A stretch of DNA of 64,000 bases from Thermotoga neapolitana DSM 4359 (lineage in GTDB: Bacteria; Thermotogota; Thermotogae; Thermotogales; Thermotogaceae), in the NCBI RefSeq assembly GCF_000018945.1, contig NC_011978.1:900729-964728 (forward strand), given 5' to 3'. The notes under the pieces were generated by a model that saw only the letters and a list, made by a program, of their open reading frames with translations, did not search any database and was not told the DNA's origin. The position numbers were made by a program, and so were the translations under genes. Positions 18,087-28,199 of the stretch are shown here, piece after piece. Each line of letters starts with the position of its first letter. Within the stretch, counting starts at the first letter, position 1.

Positions 18087-18864
18087 AGAAAAGATCGTGA
18101 TGGTCACAGCATACGACGCTCCCAGTGCCAGAATAGCCCAGGATGCGGGGATAGATATCATACTCGTTGGAGATTCCCTGGGAAACAACGTTCTTGGGTA
18201 CGAAAACACCATCCCTGTGACGATGGAAGAGATGCTCATACATGTGGCGGCGGTCAGAAGAGGAGCACCGAAAGCCTTTGTGGTCGCCGATATGCCTTTT
18301 CTTTCCTACCAGCCGTCCCTGGAGAAGGCCATAGAGAACGCCGGAAGGTTCTTGAAGGTGGGAGCAAATGCGGTTAAGATAGAAGGTGGAGAGGAATTCG
18401 GGGAAGTCGTACAGAGGCTTGTTGAATCGGGAATTCCGGTGATGGGACACATCGGACTCACACCGCAGTTCGTGAACCGCTTTGGAGGTTACAGAGTCCA
18501 AGGAAAGACGGAAAAAAGCAGAGAGTACCTCCTGAGAAGTGCCAGAGAACTGGAAAAAAGGGGAGCGTTCGCCATAGTTCTGGAGATGGTCGTTGAAGAA
18601 GTGGCAAAGGAGATCACAGAGGGTATCTCCATTCCGACGATCGGTATTGGATCCGGCCGTTTCTGCGATGGCCAGGTTCTTGTGTGGCACGACCTTTTGG
18701 GACTGAACCCGGATTTTGCGCCACGCTTTTCCAAAAGGTACGCAAACCTGTACGAAACGATTCTGAAGGCTCTTCAGGAGTTCAAAAAGGAAGTAAAAGA
18801 AGGTATTTTCCCGTCCGAAGAACATGTGTTCACAGATAAATCCCAGGGAGGTGTATCTTCATGA
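18052..18864 (+). CDS. panB: 3-methyl-2-oxobutanoate hydroxymethyltransferase PanB
   Basis: 270 residues; makes ketopantoate from 2-oxoisovalerate and methylene-tetrahydrofolate, the first step of pantothenate and CoA synthesis. Motifs: VMVTAYDAPSARIAQDAG, VGDSLGNNVLGYENT (Mg-binding DSLG), ADMPFLSYQ, GGEEFGEVVQRLVESGIPV, GHIGLTPQ and IGIGSGRFCDGQVLV with the catalytic Glu region before it. Length is normal. GTG 18052. The stop overlaps the ATG of the Omp-alpha gene (ATGA). It supplies a link to the folate one-carbon genes at 46.7-49.2 kb. Confidence 0.96.
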   Translation: MNVEKLKKMKGKEKIVMVTAYDAPSARIAQDAGIDIILVGDSLGNNVLGYENTIPVTMEEMLIHVAAVRRGAPKAFVVADMPFLSYQPSLEKAIENAGRFLKVGANAVKIEGGEEFGEVVQRLVESGIPVMGHIGLTPQFVNRFGGYRVQGKTEKSREYLLRSARELEKRGAFAIVLEMVVEEVAKEITEGISIPTIGIGSGRFCDGQVLVWHDLLGLNPDFAPRFSKRYANLYETILKALQEFKKEVKEGIFPSEEHVFTDKSQGGVSS

Positions 18865-20072
18865 GGAAGTTTCTGGCACTCGCTCTGATACTCGGAGCAC
18901 TCATCGGTATCTCACAGCAGTTCAAGGACGTTCCCGTAAACCACTGGGCTTACGAGGCAGTAACGGAGATGGCAAAACTCGGTGTGATCACCGGAATGCC
19001 CGACGGCACGTTCCAGGGCAACTCCTACCTCACAAGGTATCAGGCTGCGGTTGCGTTCTACAGACTCTACAACATCCTCAAGCAACCATCCGTTGAGGTT
19101 TCTGGACTCATCAACAAGGTTTCTACACTCGAGGATCTTGTGAGCACTGCCTTGATGAAGGTTCAGAACCTGTCCGATAACTTCGGGGGAATCACGTCCG
19201 ATCTTGAAAGTCTCAAAAACGACGTGGCCAACCTGAAATCAACTCTCGTGGATCTCAAAAACCTCAGAATGGAAGTCATGAGTCAACTGCAGAGCCAGTC
19301 CGACACGATCCAGAAACTCGACTCCAGAGTAAACGACGCCCTCTCCAGGATCGCTGCCCTTGAATCGAAGGTCTCTGGAGATTTTGTGAGCAAAGATTAC
19401 GTGGATACCAGAATATCTCAGACTGTCTCAAGATTGAGCGATCTTGAAAAGAAACTTTCGACACTTGAGACGAAAACAGCAAACCTTGAGGCTCTTGTGA
19501 AAAACACAGAGACTTCTTTGAAGGATTACGTGGAAAAAACTCTCAAGGCGTACGCCGAAACGTTCGATCAGAAACTCTCTGAAATCTCCGCAAATCTTGA
19601 AAGAAACAACACAGCACTCTCAGGAGAAATAGGAAACCTCAAGGTTCTCGTTTCCAAGCTCCAGAGCGACCTTGAAACACAGCAAAAGACAGCAAGGGCA
19701 CTTGATGCACGCGTGAGCGTCCTTGAAGGGCAGGTCACAACGGTCAACAGCCGCGTGGAAAACCTCGAAAAGAGAGTCTCTCAGGTTGAGTCCTCCGTCG
19801 GTAAGATCAGCACCCTTGAGAGAAATCTGGGAGCAGTCACCGCAAGGATCACCAAGGTTGAGGAAGAGATTCAAAGCCTCAGCCAGAGCAACACAGAACT
19901 CTCTCAGAAAGTTGACGAGATTGTCTCTTCCAAGCCGTGGATGGAAGACGTGAACAGTGTGAGCGCCACCCTCAGCAAGAAGATCTCGGACGTTCAGACC
20001 ATGGCCCTTGCAGGAGTTGCCATTGGAATCGTCGGAGTGATCATCGGATTTGTCATGGGTGGTAGCAAATAA
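18861..20072 (+). CDS. ompA1: Omp-alpha: SLH / coiled-coil outer-sheath anchor protein
   Basis: 403 residues. A signal peptide (residues 1-18, KFLALALILGALIGIS) is followed by an SLH domain (about 22-80: KDVPVNHWAYEAVTEMAKLG and TGMPDGTFQGNSYLTRYQAA), a long coiled coil (about 85-375, regular heptads with many Leu/Val and Ser/Thr/Asn), and a C-terminal membrane segment (about 381-399, MALAGVAIGIVGVIIGFVMG). This is the known plan of Thermotoga Omp-alpha, a rod spanning the periplasm with the SLH end toward the cell wall and the tail in the toga. ATG overlaps the panB stop although GGAGGTG lies upstream. A terminator follows. Confidence 0.96.
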   Translation: MRKFLALALILGALIGISQQFKDVPVNHWAYEAVTEMAKLGVITGMPDGTFQGNSYLTRYQAAVAFYRLYNILKQPSVEVSGLINKVSTLEDLVSTALMKVQNLSDNFGGITSDLESLKNDVANLKSTLVDLKNLRMEVMSQLQSQSDTIQKLDSRVNDALSRIAALESKVSGDFVSKDYVDTRISQTVSRLSDLEKKLSTLETKTANLEALVKNTETSLKDYVEKTLKAYAETFDQKLSEISANLERNNTALSGEIGNLKVLVSKLQSDLETQQKTARALDARVSVLEGQVTTVNSRVENLEKRVSQVESSVGKISTLERNLGAVTARITKVEEEIQSLSQSNTELSQKVDEIVSSKPWMEDVNSVSATLSKKISDVQTMALAGVAIGIVGVIIGFVMGGSK

Positions 20073-22186: not shown

Positions 22187-22959
22187 AGATAGCGATTCTG
22201 TACAGAGAGGAGAAAGAAAAGGAAGGAGTGTTGTTGAAAGAAAAGCTCTCAAGAGAGCACGAGGTGGTAAGCTTCCACGAGGCAAGTGCTTCAAATGTCG
22301 TTGATGCCGACCTGATAGTGGTGGTCGGTGGAGATGGCACGATGCTCAGGGCAGCAAGGAAAGCCGCCGACGGAACACCTCTGGTGGGATTCAAAGCAGG
22401 AAGATTGGGATTCCTCACATCTTACACCCTCGAAGAGGTGGATCAATTCCTGGAGGATCTGAGGAAGGGGAACTTTCGGGAGGAGTTGAGATGGTTCATA
22501 CGTGTGGAGAGTGACATCGGTTCGCACCTGGCGCTGAACGACGCCACCCTGGAGAGAGACCTGAGTGGAAAGATGGTGGAAATAGAGGTCAATGTCGAGC
22601 ATCATTCTTCCATGTGGTTCTTCGCCGACGGAGTGGTTGTCGCTTCTCCAACGGGCTCTACAGCGTACTCACTCTCCATCGGTGGACCAATAATATTCCC
22701 TGAATGTGAAGTTCTGGAGATCTCTCCCATTGCACCGCAGTTTTTTCTGACAAGGAGCGTGGTGATACCCTCCAGTTTCAAGGTCACAGTAGAATGTCAG
22801 AGAGAGATCAACCTGTTGATAGACGGAACGATGGTGGGCAAGACCAGGAGAGTGATCGTTCAGAAGGCTGAAAAGTACGTCAAAATTCTCAGACCGATCA
22901 AGTACGACTATGTGGCGGTTATAAGAGAGAAGCTGGGTTACGGGAGGCGCATCGAGTGA
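22183..22959 (+). CDS. nadK: NAD kinase
   Basis: 258 residues; phosphorylates NAD to NADP. The catalytic GGDGT motif lies in LIVVVGGDGTMLRAARK, with LALNDATLER (NE/D motif) and VVASPTGSTAYSLSIGGP as the other nucleotide-site elements. Length is in the normal bacterial range. It overlaps yggT at the start and phoU at the end (GTGA). Confidence 0.96.
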   Translation: MKIAILYREEKEKEGVLLKEKLSREHEVVSFHEASASNVVDADLIVVVGGDGTMLRAARKAADGTPLVGFKAGRLGFLTSYTLEEVDQFLEDLRKGNFREELRWFIRVESDIGSHLALNDATLERDLSGKMVEIEVNVEHHSSMWFFADGVVVASPTGSTAYSLSIGGPIIFPECEVLEISPIAPQFFLTRSVVIPSSFKVTVECQREINLLIDGTMVGKTRRVIVQKAEKYVKILRPIKYDYVAVIREKLGYGRRIE

Positions 22960-23663
22960 ACAGGTTGTTGAGTGACAGGGTCGAGGAGTTCAAAAAGGGT
23001 GTCTTGAAGGCAGGATGGTTCATAGAGAAGATGTTCCGCAACTCGATATCTGCTCTCGTTGAAAGAAACGAATCACTGGCAAAAGAAGTGATCGCTGACG
23101 AAGAGGTCGTTGACCAGATGGAAGTGGAGATCCAGGAAAAAGCCATGGAAATCCTGGGGCTCTTTTCTCCCATCGGGAAACCCCTCCTGACCGTCACAGC
23201 CGGTATAAGAGTTGCAGAACTCATAGAAAACATCGCCGACAAGTGCCACGATATAGCCAAAAACGTCCTCGAACTCATGGAAGAGCCTCCGTTGAAACCA
23301 CTGGAGGACATACCCAATATGGCAAACCAGACCTCAGAGATGCTGAAGTTTGCTCTGAGGATGTTCGCAGATGTGAACGTGGAGAAATCCTTCGAGGTCT
23401 GCAGAATGGATTCCAAGGTGGACGATCTGTACGAGAAGGTCAGGGAAGAACTGCTTCTCTACATGATGGAATCTCCAAAGTACGTGAAAAGGGCTCTACT
23501 CTTACTTGAGATAGCCGGTCATATAGAGATCATCGCGGATTACGCAACGAACATCGTGGGGGTCTCCGTATACATGGTTCAGGGAGAACCGTACAAGTGC
23601 TACCACGATGAGCTCCTTCTCTTCAAGAAAGCCGGAGGGGTGTTGTTTGAAAATATTGACTAA
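22956..23663 (+). CDS. phoU: PhoU-family protein
   Basis: 235 residues, all-helical, two PhoU repeats. The metal-binding E/DxxxD patterns appear as VIADEEVVDQMEVEIQEKA in repeat one and MDSKVDDLYEKVREELL in repeat two, and the IEIIADYATNIVGVSVYM ending is family-typical. PhoU dampens phosphate transport through PstB/PhoR, but no pst or two-component genes are in this window, so the target here is not shown. GTG 22956 overlaps the NAD kinase stop. Confidence 0.9.
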   Translation: MNRLLSDRVEEFKKGVLKAGWFIEKMFRNSISALVERNESLAKEVIADEEVVDQMEVEIQEKAMEILGLFSPIGKPLLTVTAGIRVAELIENIADKCHDIAKNVLELMEEPPLKPLEDIPNMANQTSEMLKFALRMFADVNVEKSFEVCRMDSKVDDLYEKVREELLLYMMESPKYVKRALLLLEIAGHIEIIADYATNIVGVSVYMVQGEPYKCYHDELLLFKKAGGVLFENID

Positions 23664-26600
23664 GTACCTTCTGAAACTTTCTGCAGTGCCTTTCCTGATT
23701 GGACTTGGTGGATTCATCATCTTTGTCAGCATCGAGATCCTCTATCAACTCTCAGACCTGATAGTAAGGCACAGAGTCGGCATTGGAAAACTTTTTCTAC
23801 TTCTCTATTACTATCTGCCCTATTTCGTCGCAATGGGCGTTCCCGTGGGTGTGCTGCTTTCCATCTTCTGGACCTTCTCAAAGCTTTCTGAAGACAGAGA
23901 ACTCATGGCCATCCAGGTTCACGGTATCTCTCAGAAAAACCTGATCGTTCCTTTTCTTTTTCTGAGCGTTCTTCTGTCGGTGATCGTGTTCTTTCTCAAC
24001 GATCAGGTGGTTCCGGTGTACCAGTCCAGGGCAGAGGAAGCCATGTCGAAGTACGTCCTTAAAAAGCCGGAAGTCTTCGTTGTGGAAAACGTGATCTCGA
24101 AAATCGGGGAGGACCAGTACTTCTACGTTGAAAAGTACGATGAAAAGACGAACACCCTATGGAACGTCGTGATCTTCAAGTATGGAAGCGAAGAGAAGAT
24201 CGTTACCGCAAAAAGGGTGCAGAAAAGAGAGGAAAGATGGTATCTCTTCGATGGAAGGTATTACACGGTGGATAAAGATGGTTTTTTGAAACTGGACGTT
24301 CATTTCTCCGAGATGGAACTCGACATAACCGAGGATATAGAAAACCTCCTTCGCGTGGGAAAGACACCGAGGGAAATGACTGGAAAAGAGCTCAAAGAGA
24401 AAATAGAGTTCTTCAGAAAGGTCGGCATAAAGCCCTCTCCATGGATAGTGGAACTTCAGAGCAGATACGCAAATTCTCTCACTCCCATCGTGATAGTTCT
24501 CGTTGGAGTGCCACTCTCTCTGCTCTTTCAACTCAGAAGCAAATCCTGGGGTGTGATATTCACTTTTGTTCTTGTTGTTCTGTACCAGGGAAGCGGAGCC
24601 TGGCTCAGTGCTATGGGGAAAGAAAACCTTCTGGATCCTGGTTTTGCACCGTGGATCCCAAACATCGTGTTTTCTGTTATGGGTGGTCTTCTTTTCGTAC
24701 TCCTTGACACTGCCGTTGCCTACAGGATTCGGGAGTTCCTCACCAGGATTTTTCTCCTCTTGATCTTCATCCTCGGCACTTCCCTTTTCTCCTCTCAGGT
24801 AAACATCGTGTCCGATCAAATGGAAAGACTCACAGACAAGATGCTTTTTCTGGGAAATGTGGAGATCACCTACAAAGACGCGACCATACAGGCCAGCAAG
24901 ACTGTTGTTCATCTCAACAAAGAAGACAGAGTAGAATATCTCGAGGCCATTGGAGAAGTGGTCTACAGAAAGAAAGACACGATTCTGGAAAGCGACCGCT
25001 TGATCTTCTATCCAGAGGGTGAAAGGAACCTTCTTTTCCACGTGAGGGGAAGTACCATCGTTGAGATAGAAGGGGAGAAGAAAAAGATCTACCTGTCAGG
25101 GGAGGAAATCACCGTCGAGGGTTCAAAAACGACTGTGGACTTTGGCTACATCACCACCTGTTCGGAGATTCCCCCTCACTACAAACTGAAGGCCACGTAC
25201 ATGGAGATAAGGGAAAACGACTACCTTCTGGCCAAAAACGTGGTTTTTTATCTTCTAGAGATACCGATATTCTACCAGCCCGTGTTCTTCACCTCTCTCT
25301 CCGACAAACCGCAGCCCTTTTCTGTGGAAATTGGATACGGGCAGAATCCCTATTTGAAGACCTCGTACAACGTTTCCTACGCACAGGGTCTTGTGTTCTT
25401 TTCTGTAAAGAGCGTGCTTGGGGAGGGAAACTGGAAGGAGTTCGAATGGAACCACAAACTGGGAAACTGGACGGTCAACGTCAACTACGAAGAATCACCG
25501 GACTCTCGTGAGGCTCTGGTTAAACTTTTCGACGAGAAAAACGTGATTCTCTTTTCCCAGGATGAGGGTTACAAAAGAACGTATCGGTTCGAGCGGAAAG
25601 AAAAAGTGATGAACGGAAATCTGAACATCGTGCTGGAAAAATCATCGGATGGCACCTACATCATTCCACGCGTAACTCTGAAGAGGGCTTCCTTCAAATT
25701 GAGTCAGGGAACTCTATCTGTGAGCAGTTTCACCCATGAAACCCGTGTGGAAGGTGAAGGCAGCGAAACCTCCGGAACGGTGAACCTTTCATTCCGATCG
25801 GTCCCGTTTTTTCTTCTTCAGACTGTGAACGTCAACACCACCGGAAAGTATCTCTTCGAAAACAGGATCTTCGATGAAGAAGTGAGCTTTCTCAAAGTGG
25901 ACTCTGTCTGGGATTTCCAGAACCTCTCCCTCGGGAAACTTATAACACTGGATGATAAAATATACGCTGGCATCTACAGGTCCGAAGAAAGTGGATACCG
26001 CGTTGGGAATTTCTTCACAACAACACTGAAAGTACCTCTTGACCCTTTTTCCTTTGAGAGTTACTACAAACTCTACGTGGTTCGCGGGGAAAACCTGAGA
26101 AAGTTCTCACAGAATGAATCCAGAAACGAAGTGGACCTGAAGGCGATCTTTTCTTACGGAGGTTTTCACTCCTCGCTTGAGACAACGTACGATTTCATCG
26201 AAGAAGAGTTCTCCGATCCATACCTGAAGACTTCTTTCTCCTTCAAAACGGGAAATCTGACTCATACAATCAACACCACCACCCGTTTCGTTCTGGACGA
26301 TTTGAAAAAGAGTTACACCAGATGGGAATTTCAACAGAGGGCTGGATCGTTGCTGAACAAACTCTACTTCACTTACTTTTACGACAAGGCGAACATCGAA
26401 TACATCGAAGACCAGATGAGGATATACGGAAGGGATTTTCTATTCATGGAGGATCCAAGGATAACGGCGTATTCTAAGGTGAAGGTCGATCCTTTTAAAC
26501 TGGAAAGATTCTGGATACGTGGGAACTTCAAAAGGGAAGAGATCGTACATTCCATAAAACTGGATTTCGATGGCGAGGATCTGGATCTTTCTTACGGGAT

Positions 26601-26832
26601 GAAAAATGGAGATCCCACTTTCGATCTGTCGATCTCTCTTGAAAACTGGAGCGTCAGGTCTTTCAGCGTGTCTGTTGAGAAGGCACTCCACTGTCTCGGG
26701 GCAAGGGTATCTGCCTCTTTCGGTAGGGACTTTTCTCTGGAAAACTTCTCGGTGTTCTTCTACATAAGGGACTTTCCAAACAGTGGTATCGGTTTCGACT
26801 CGGAGGAAGGTCTGGGTGTGAACGTCTTTTGA
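23647..26832 (+). CDS. LptF/G permease fused to LptA/LptD-like outer-membrane assembly region
   Basis: 1061 residues. TTG 23647 is chosen because GGAGGGG ends 6 nt upstream; it overlaps phoU by 17 bp. Residues 1-355 are an LptF/LptG (YjgP/YjgQ) permease: paired N-terminal helices, the LPYFVAMGVPVGVLLSI motif, a periplasmic beta domain (about 125-230), and four-helix second half. Residues 363-384 (FLTRIFLLLIFILGTSLFSS) look like a signal peptide buried in the chain. An OstA/LptA-like jellyroll follows (about 385-480, NIVSDQMERLTDKMLFLGNV), and then a ~570-residue LptD-like beta region. That region has a late HCLGARVSASFGRD resembling the conserved LptD end and a terminal Phe. It would link inner membrane, periplasm and outer membrane. 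The cargo is unknown because Thermotoga lacks classical LPS. Confidence 0.85.
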   Translation: MKILTKYLLKLSAVPFLIGLGGFIIFVSIEILYQLSDLIVRHRVGIGKLFLLLYYYLPYFVAMGVPVGVLLSIFWTFSKLSEDRELMAIQVHGISQKNLIVPFLFLSVLLSVIVFFLNDQVVPVYQSRAEEAMSKYVLKKPEVFVVENVISKIGEDQYFYVEKYDEKTNTLWNVVIFKYGSEEKIVTAKRVQKREERWYLFDGRYYTVDKDGFLKLDVHFSEMELDITEDIENLLRVGKTPREMTGKELKEKIEFFRKVGIKPSPWIVELQSRYANSLTPIVIVLVGVPLSLLFQLRSKSWGVIFTFVLVVLYQGSGAWLSAMGKENLLDPGFAPWIPNIVFSVMGGLLFVLLDTAVAYRIREFLTRIFLLLIFILGTSLFSSQVNIVSDQMERLTDKMLFLGNVEITYKDATIQASKTVVHLNKEDRVEYLEAIGEVVYRKKDTILESDRLIFYPEGERNLLFHVRGSTIVEIEGEKKKIYLSGEEITVEGSKTTVDFGYITTCSEIPPHYKLKATYMEIRENDYLLAKNVVFYLLEIPIFYQPVFFTSLSDKPQPFSVEIGYGQNPYLKTSYNVSYAQGLVFFSVKSVLGEGNWKEFEWNHKLGNWTVNVNYEESPDSREALVKLFDEKNVILFSQDEGYKRTYRFERKEKVMNGNLNIVLEKSSDGTYIIPRVTLKRASFKLSQGTLSVSSFTHETRVEGEGSETSGTVNLSFRSVPFFLLQTVNVNTTGKYLFENRIFDEEVSFLKVDSVWDFQNLSLGKLITLDDKIYAGIYRSEESGYRVGNFFTTTLKVPLDPFSFESYYKLYVVRGENLRKFSQNESRNEVDLKAIFSYGGFHSSLETTYDFIEEEFSDPYLKTSFSFKTGNLTHTINTTTRFVLDDLKKSYTRWEFQQRAGSLLNKLYFTYFYDKANIEYIEDQMRIYGRDFLFMEDPRITAYSKVKVDPFKLERFWIRGNFKREEIVHSIKLDFDGEDLDLSYGMKNGDPTFDLSISLENWSVRSFSVSVEKALHCLGARVSASFGRDFSLENFSVFFYIRDFPNSGIGFDSEEGLGVNVF

Positions 26833-26843
26833 GAGGTGATAGG

Positions 26844-28199
26844 ATGCGAGTACCTCCGCACAACCTGGAAGCAGAGATTGCCGTTCTTGGAAGCATACTG
26901 ATAGATCCATCCGTCATAAACGATGTACTGGAGATACTGAGTCACGAAGACTTCTATCTGAAGAAACACCAGTACATATTCAGGGCGATGGAAGAGCTCT
27001 ACGACGAAGGAAAGCCGGTGGATGTTATTTCTGTGTGTGACAAACTTCAGAGCATGGGAAAACTTGAGGAAATCGGCGGGGACGAGGAAGTTGCCCGTCT
27101 GGCAGAGGCGGTTCCAAGTTCTGCTCACGCCGTTCATTACGCAGAAATCGTCAGAGAAAAGTCCATTCTGAGACAACTCATCGAGGTTTCAAGAAAAATC
27201 TCCGAAAGTGCCTACATGGAAGAAGACGTGGATGTTCTTCTTGACAACGCCGAAAAGATGATATTTGAAATCTCCGAAATGAAAACAACTAAATCATATG
27301 ACCACCTGAGAGGAATCATGCATCGTGTCTTTGAAAACCTGGAAAATTTCAGAGAAAGGGCAAACGTCATAGAACCCGGTGTCCTCGTGACGGGACTTCC
27401 AACGGGCTTCAAAAGTTTGGACAAGCAGACCACGGGTTTTCACAACTCCGACCTGGTGATCATTGCCGCAAGGCCATCCATGGGAAAAACATCCTTTGCG
27501 CTCTCCATAGCCAGGAACATGGCTGTCAGTTTCGAAATACCAGTTGGAATTTTCAGTCTTGAGATGTCCAAGGAACAGCTGGCTCAGCGACTCCTCAGTA
27601 TGGAGTCCGGTGTGGATCTGTACAGTATAAGGACGGGACATCTCGATCAGGAACAGTGGGAAAGACTCACGATAGCCGCCTCCAAACTGTACAAAGCTCC
27701 AATAATAGTCGACGATGAAACCCTTCTGGATCCGAGAACACTGAGAGCGAAGGCAAGAAGAATGAAAAAGGAGTACGATGTAAAGGTCATTTTCGTTGAC
27801 TATCTTCAGCTCATGCATCTCAAGGGAAGAAAAGAAAGCAGACAGCAGGAAATATCGGAGATCTCCAGATCTTTGAAACTCCTTGCAAGAGAGCTGGATA
27901 TCGTTGTAGTGGCTTTATCTCAGCTTTCCAGGGCGGTGGAGCAAAGAGAGGACAAGAGGCCAAGACTCAGTGACCTGAGGGAATCTGGAGCGATCGAACA
28001 GGATGCCGACACGGTCATCTTCATATACAGAGACGAGTACTATAAGAGCAAAAAAGACAAGGAAGGAAGCAAACTCCATGAGCCTCACGAAGCGGAGATC
28101 ATCATAGGAAAGCAGAGAAACGGACCCGTTGGAACGATCACGCTCATCTTCGATCCGAGGACGGTGACGTTCCACGAAGTAGATGTGGTGCATTCGTGA
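26844..28199 (+). CDS. dnaB: replicative DNA helicase DnaB
   Basis: 451 residues. The N-terminal helical domain starts VPPHNLEAEIAVLGSIL, and the RecA-like domain has Walker A ARPSMGKTSFAL (about residue 213 onward) and Walker B VKVIFVDYLQLM. QEISEISRSLKLLARELDI and LRESGAIEQDADTVIFIYR complete the helicase motifs. No intein is seen. ATG 26844 follows GAGAGGTGAT; an upstream TTG overlapping the previous stop is unlikely. It loads at the fork as a hexamer. Confidence 0.97.
   Translation: MRVPPHNLEAEIAVLGSILIDPSVINDVLEILSHEDFYLKKHQYIFRAMEELYDEGKPVDVISVCDKLQSMGKLEEIGGDEEVARLAEAVPSSAHAVHYAEIVREKSILRQLIEVSRKISESAYMEEDVDVLLDNAEKMIFEISEMKTTKSYDHLRGIMHRVFENLENFRERANVIEPGVLVTGLPTGFKSLDKQTTGFHNSDLVIIAARPSMGKTSFALSIARNMAVSFEIPVGIFSLEMSKEQLAQRLLSMESGVDLYSIRTGHLDQEQWERLTIAASKLYKAPIIVDDETLLDPRTLRAKARRMKKEYDVKVIFVDYLQLMHLKGRKESRQQEISEISRSLKLLARELDIVVVALSQLSRAVEQREDKRPRLSDLRESGAIEQDADTVIFIYRDEYYKSKKDKEGSKLHEPHEAEIIIGKQRNGPVGTITLIFDPRTVTFHEVDVVHS

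Follow-up and report, generated by a model that had tools for sequence, protein, structure and literature searches.

In Borrelia burgdorferi, a diderm bacterium lacking LPS, a full Lpt-like set has been described in which all proteins are separate and two permeases, LptF and LptG, are present (PMC10353723). Diderm Firmicutes make LPS and possess a single LptF/G permease, LptB and two OstA-type proteins; no LptD was found in these organisms and a fusion was not described (PMC5007114). Thermotogae have been recorded as lacking both LPS synthesis (PMC5007114) and Mla (PMC10665443). We analyzed a window of 64,000 nucleotides from Thermotoga neapolitana DSM 4359 that contains a gene combining an LptF/G-type permease with an LptD-like protein in one frame. 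No description of such a fusion was found in the open literature searched; its parts are of a known kind, and the fused arrangement is new to that literature.

The fused gene and its two halves

The gene is a single open reading frame of 1061 codons on the forward strand, which extends from a TTG at position 23647 to the stop at 26832. The unbroken frame reported in the initial annotation was confirmed, as it has no internal stop, and the TTG is the start kept in relatives. Its features and neighbours are listed in Table 1. In families other than f7, the genes for NAD kinase, PhoU and often DnaB are kept around the fused gene, with DnaB adjoining it in several families.

Table 1. Features of the fused gene and of neighbouring genes, in window positions.
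Feature	Position	Strand	Basis or remark
Ribosome-binding-site-like GGAGGGG	23634..23640	+	7 nt 5' of TTG; sequence
LptF/G-type permease, residues 1-358 (Pfam match 6-350)	23647..24720	+	Pfam, AlphaFold2, Foldseek
Internal signal-peptide-like segment, residues 359-382, YRIREFLTR / IFLLLIFILGTSLFS	24721..24792	+	Comparison of relatives
LptD N-terminal beta-taco (OstA/LptA-like), residues 385-550	24799..25296	+	Profiles, AlphaFold2
Cys505 codon	25159..25161	+	Paired with Cys173 of E. coli LptD
LptD-like beta-barrel region, residues 558-1061, terminal Phe	25318..26829	+	AlphaFold2, Foldseek
Cys1016 codon	26692..26694	+	Probably equivalent to Cys724/725 of E. coli LptD
PhoU-domain gene, overlaps fused-gene start	22956..23663	+	Upstream neighbour
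Replicative helicase DnaB gene, overlaps fused-gene stop	26829..28199	+	Downstream neighbour
Omp-alpha-type envelope spacer (SLH domain + ~282-residue coiled coil)	18861..20072	+	Used as periplasm ruler

The Pfam family LptF_LptG matched residues 6-350 over profile positions 1-351 of 353 (E 5.8e-86), which bears out the earlier claim of a complete YjgP/YjgQ-type permease. This half has six transmembrane helices, of which the third and fourth are separated by a periplasmic beta domain, and its Foldseek matches were 6mjp_G, 6mit_G and 8ufg_G. With 143 and 139 bits it remained below the respective cut-offs of 230 and 240 of the NCBIfam equivalogs LptF and LptG, so the permease belongs to the LptF/G family and is neither LptF nor LptG proper. 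Since a genome-wide family search revealed the fused gene as the only LptF/LptG-family gene of the genome, a homodimer is implied, and the permease probably works in this form with two LptB ATPases encoded elsewhere.

Within the C-terminal 680 residues, the Pfam model LptD_N/LptA matched residues 391-455 (E 3e-5, passing the Pfam cut-off); no Pfam or NCBIfam model of the LptD barrel fired on the 1061-residue protein, and the C-terminal remainder was therefore assessed by its fold. AlphaFold2, run with 35 relatives, gave a mean pLDDT of 81.6 for the whole chain and of 89.1 for residues 383-1061 alone. When the whole chain was compared with the PDB by Foldseek, ranks 1-15 were LptD (E 9e-21 to 2e-15), followed by LptF/LptG, and with the C-terminal half alone LptD again occupied ranks 1-15 (E 1e-20 to 1e-13 over both queries). 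With TM-scores of only 0.3-0.5 (below 0.5 for the LptD matches), membership in the LptD family is clear and a closed barrel remains putative; about 34 strands are predicted by AlphaFold2 beyond residue 557, compared with 26 strands and a lateral gate in a closed LptD barrel. A search of a viral fold library with this protein gave nothing meaningful.

With hhalign, the C-terminal half could be aligned as a profile to E. coli LptD (probability 90.8, E 1.2e-6), and a profile search of PDB sequences returned LptA and LptD as the only meaningful matches. The alignment paired Cys505 (YITTC) with Cys173 (FTSC) of E. coli LptD and the motif PIFYQP with PIFYSP. The protein contains only two cysteines, Cys505 and Cys1016, the latter 45 residues before the C-terminus; the first was kept in 37/37 relatives compared and the second in 33/37. 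In E. coli LptD, Cys173 is disulfide-bonded to Cys725 near the C-terminus. Thus, of the two disulfides of LptD, one appears to have been kept, with Cys505-Cys1016 at the site of the 173-725 bond. The HCLGARVSASFGRD segment lies at residues 1015-1028, and the last residue of the protein is Phe, as in most relatives.

Judged by profiles and predicted fold, the C-terminal part is a genuine LptD consisting of a beta-taco and a predicted beta-rich barrel region, in line with the LptD-like, beta-rich part with a late HCLGARVSASFGRD segment and terminal Phe proposed in the initial annotation. The OstA/LptA-like jellyroll proposed there was recovered as the match at residues 391-455; rather than a separate LptA, it is LptD's own N-terminal beta-taco. 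As read from sequence and model, a single gene specifies the two ends of an Lpt lipid-export machine, the engine in the inner membrane and the exit in the outer membrane.

Distribution of the fusion and of partner genes

Homologues of the fused gene were present in 101 of the 103 Thermotogota genomes. The junction was covered in 99 genomes and the frame was open in 97 of these, a count obtained by reading the homologue table in combination with individual locus checks. The fusion is therefore phylum-wide and not Thermotoga-specific, as had initially been proposed. A sequencing or assembly error as its origin is refuted by the recurrence of the open junction in these genomes, single-contig ones included, and is practically inconceivable. 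Nothing was found in its favour, although indels are present elsewhere in the gene in single assemblies (G041, G093).

Two genomes have the halves as separate genes. In G054 (record L175), a stop closes the permease gene, and 4 nt further on an ATG opens an LptD that carries a signal peptide of its own, MHLRYKSFSPVLFIISLFFIILSGTKVFS. In G005, two permeases lie side by side, and LptD is encoded elsewhere in the genome with its own N-terminal signal peptide. Both are draft genomes and the branches of G005 are long; in the tree, G005 groups with family f7 at a support of 98/98 and G054 falls inside family f10 at 100/100. This nesting of split genomes among fused relatives implies that the fusion came first and has been reversed at least twice, and the splits indicate that the two halves need not be linked. 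The two adjacent permeases of G005 (L037:6410-8743) are strongly diverged, as if a heterodimer had evolved after the permease was freed from LptD. The same genome encodes a 603-residue protein with three LptA-like repeats (L065:6294-8105), perhaps a ready-made periplasmic bridge.

A scan of GTDB contigs for fusions returned Thermotogota loci and one further bacterium (L179) with the same fused frame, as well as one Sphingomonadaceae genome with a weak match to the permease alone; the patterns used favour close relatives, so the scan is not proof of absence of fusions outside Thermotogota.

The genome search for partners of the fused protein was positive for LptB, an LptA/C-like protein, BamA and, within the fusion, LptD. 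LptB scored above the cut-off in 98/103 genomes. In T. neapolitana it was identified by TIGR04406, likewise above cut-off (G000:C1:1479114-1479812), and its gene adjoins one for an OmpH/Skp-like chaperone (L035:7115-8313; PF03938 E 5e-23). BamA was found in 88/103 genomes; in those of family f8, LptB lies about 4 kb from it. A separate two-repeat LptA/LptC-like protein was also present in 98/103 genomes, and the T. neapolitana copy (G000:C1:1828869-1829486) exceeded the Pfam LptD_N cut-off. The gene for the latter is located just downstream of two patatin-like phospholipase ORFs (PF01734 E 3.9e-33 for one, the other weak), and an Omp-alpha-like coiled-coil gene also lies upstream of it (L137:3870-5984; G000:C1 ~1828869-1830983). 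The same order of phospholipase, coiled-coil and LptA/C-like genes occurs in the relatives G094 and G091, and the patatin-like neighbours could connect the Lpt system with the turnover of lipids.

Profiles for LpxC, LptE (PF04390) and TamB had matches in 0/103 Thermotogota genomes with positive controls, although a distant LptE could be missed. AsmA was likewise at 0/103; its profile matched in only two control genomes, which makes this the least sensitive of the absence searches. For MCE, with positive controls, a single sub-threshold match was obtained among the 103 genomes. Among the lipid-carrier profiles searched in these genomes, Lpt was the sole type with above-threshold matches.

With neither LptE nor LPS, the usual function of LptD is missing, which would fit an LptD-like half that never reaches the outer membrane and is retained at the inner membrane, where it would be a relic or a regulator. 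We consider this very unlikely, because the LptD fold and cysteines are kept, most relatives retain the terminal Phe, and BamA is widespread.

The junction as a candidate internal signal peptide

In every relative examined, the junction consists of a basic stretch followed by about 16 uncharged residues and then the beta-taco. When 33 junction sequences were anchored on the first beta-strand of the beta-taco, A, G or S occupied a single position, three residues before this strand, in 27/33, compared to 6-45% at neighbouring positions. None of 20,000 trials in which the last nine residues of each sequence were shuffled reached the observed count (p 5e-5); when the set was reduced to roughly one sequence for each genus, p was 3e-4. 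The same position holds S or A in 20/24 of the N-terminal signal peptides with which the phylum's separate LptA-like proteins begin. Phe before the cut position is common in both sets (14/24 in the LptA-like signal peptides), and the distance from the last charged residue to the cut has a median of 16 at the junction versus 13-17 in the LptA-like signal peptides. The features of a signal peptidase I substrate, namely a basic n-region, a short h-region and a small residue at -1, are all present. AlphaFold2 confidence fell below 50 at residues 378-382, right at the predicted cut after Ser382.

A generic best-site score for signal peptidase was dropped, as the junction mean was 2.70 versus 2.79 for shuffles and helix 5 scored higher; since this score was unable to discriminate, the position-anchored test was used instead. 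In the T. neapolitana protein the predicted site reads LFS/SQ, and with Leu at -3 it is a weaker site for signal peptidase I than the AxA-like sites of many relatives. G006 and G007 (L039, L040) carry a linker of about 50 residues rich in Pro, Thr and Ser between the signal-peptide-like segment and the beta-taco.

The junction is probably an internal signal peptide, with the product being cut in two by signal peptidase I. A counterpoint is that most of the phylum has retained the fused form, and there would be no need to retain a fusion of no use. An alternative source of two proteins would be a second, internal start of translation at the junction. A real start codon is present at this point in G054, and the T. 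neapolitana gene has an in-frame TTG within the hydrophobic run; a start at this TTG would drop the basic n-region, and the fused relatives share no conserved internal start residue, which makes initiation instead of proteolysis highly improbable.

The initial annotation had proposed a covalent bridge. The chain would then remain whole, with the segment after the permease as its seventh transmembrane anchor, and would reach from the inner to the outer membrane as one polypeptide. This would agree with the uninterrupted frame in nearly all informative genomes and with a helix predicted by AlphaFold2 at residues 356-379. From the end of this helix to the barrel, however, there are only about five residues and one beta-taco: the part from residue 385 to the barrel has about 12 beta-strands and measures at most ~6 nm (12 x 0.48 nm, an upper bound based on AlphaFold2). 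In comparison, the Omp-alpha-type protein encoded in the window has a proline-free coiled coil of 282 residues, corresponding to ~42 nm, and the toga balloons off the cell at the poles (PMC3387000). We infer from these dimensions that an uncut chain, which would need a gap of about 6 nm, could not sit in both membranes across ~42 nm. The fixed A/G/S position, the natural splits in G005 and G054 and the separate LptA/C-like linker protein in 98/103 genomes also speak against the bridge, which thus appears improbable; signal-peptide-like junction, splits and geometry together favour a cleaved polyprotein. The spacer gene, which is of the type of T. maritima OmpA1/OmpA2, is located 3.5 kb upstream of the fused gene.

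Proposed function and comparison with known systems

We consider it likely that the gene product is a polyprotein comprising two proteins of an Lpt lipid exporter. Residues 1-358 would fold in the inner membrane as the LptF/G permease, whose six helices would leave the chain on the cytoplasmic side. YRIREFLTR and the following hydrophobic run would then act as an internal signal peptide and send the remainder through Sec, and signal peptidase I would cut, most likely after Ser382, to release LptD for insertion into the outer membrane by BamA. The permease dimer with LptB2 would extract lipid, the separate two-repeat LptA/C-like beta-taco protein would connect the permease with the LptD beta-taco and carry the lipid, and LptD would insert it. 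The cargo would be non-LPS, perhaps the glycolipids reported for Thermotoga. The lipids of T. maritima include phosphoglycerol, diglucosyl, decanoyl-diglucosyl and membrane-spanning diabolic-acid lipids (PMC8788747), and the glycolipids are a guess, as the most LPS-like of these. Of the distinct transport system envisaged initially, the Lpt machine for non-LPS cargo was retained, in agreement with LpxC at 0/103 and the toga lineage, and the covalent bridge was given up.

The lack of LpxC, LptE, TamB and AsmA matches, the single weak MCE match and the near universality of the Lpt parts lead to a more tentative proposal, which we regard as possible and rather doubtful: Lpt might be the general, perhaps the only, supply of outer-membrane lipid in Thermotogota, with its two ends made at a fixed 1:1 ratio as one polyprotein. 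If so, Lpt would be a bulk lipid exporter and not an LPS specialist. The fused Lpt system gains its weight from the fact that Thermotogota lack LPS and that no other recognised carrier of lipid between the membranes is apparent in them. Nearly all their genomes carry the Lpt set including LptD, which was probably overlooked because LptD is hidden behind the permease. The data of the present analysis are at variance with Leonard et al. The finding bears on whether two membranes were present in the bacterial ancestor, on the lipid supply of the toga and on whether Lpt predates LPS and has a wider role. In addition, it is a clean example of a membrane polyprotein in bacteria in which natural fissions fall exactly at the predicted cut.

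A comparable gene architecture is that of Bradyrhizobium fbcH (cytochrome b / c1), in which a membrane protein with several helices and an exported protein share one frame, with an internal signal peptide separating them; the proteins are unrelated to those of the Thermotogota fusion, fbcH belonging to a respiratory complex. With LptB2FG of Proteobacteria, the Thermotogota system shares the LptF/G fold and family and the presence of LptB in the same genomes, whereas it has one permease gene instead of two, which runs on in-frame into LptD. Compared to the LptD LPS translocon, it agrees in the beta-taco, the TTC motif, the P..Y.P.Y motif, the cysteine pair and the LptD fold; in contrast, the Thermotogota form occurs without detectable LptE or LPS and is produced as a C-terminal continuation of a permease. 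Diderm Firmicutes resemble Thermotogota in having one permease and two OstA-type proteins, and differ in their LPS, in the LptD not found there and in the fusion not described (PMC5007114). Borrelia burgdorferi and Thermotogota both have full Lpt-like sets in an LPS-less diderm, which in the former consist of entirely separate proteins with two permeases (PMC10353723) and in the latter unite a single permease with LptD in one gene.
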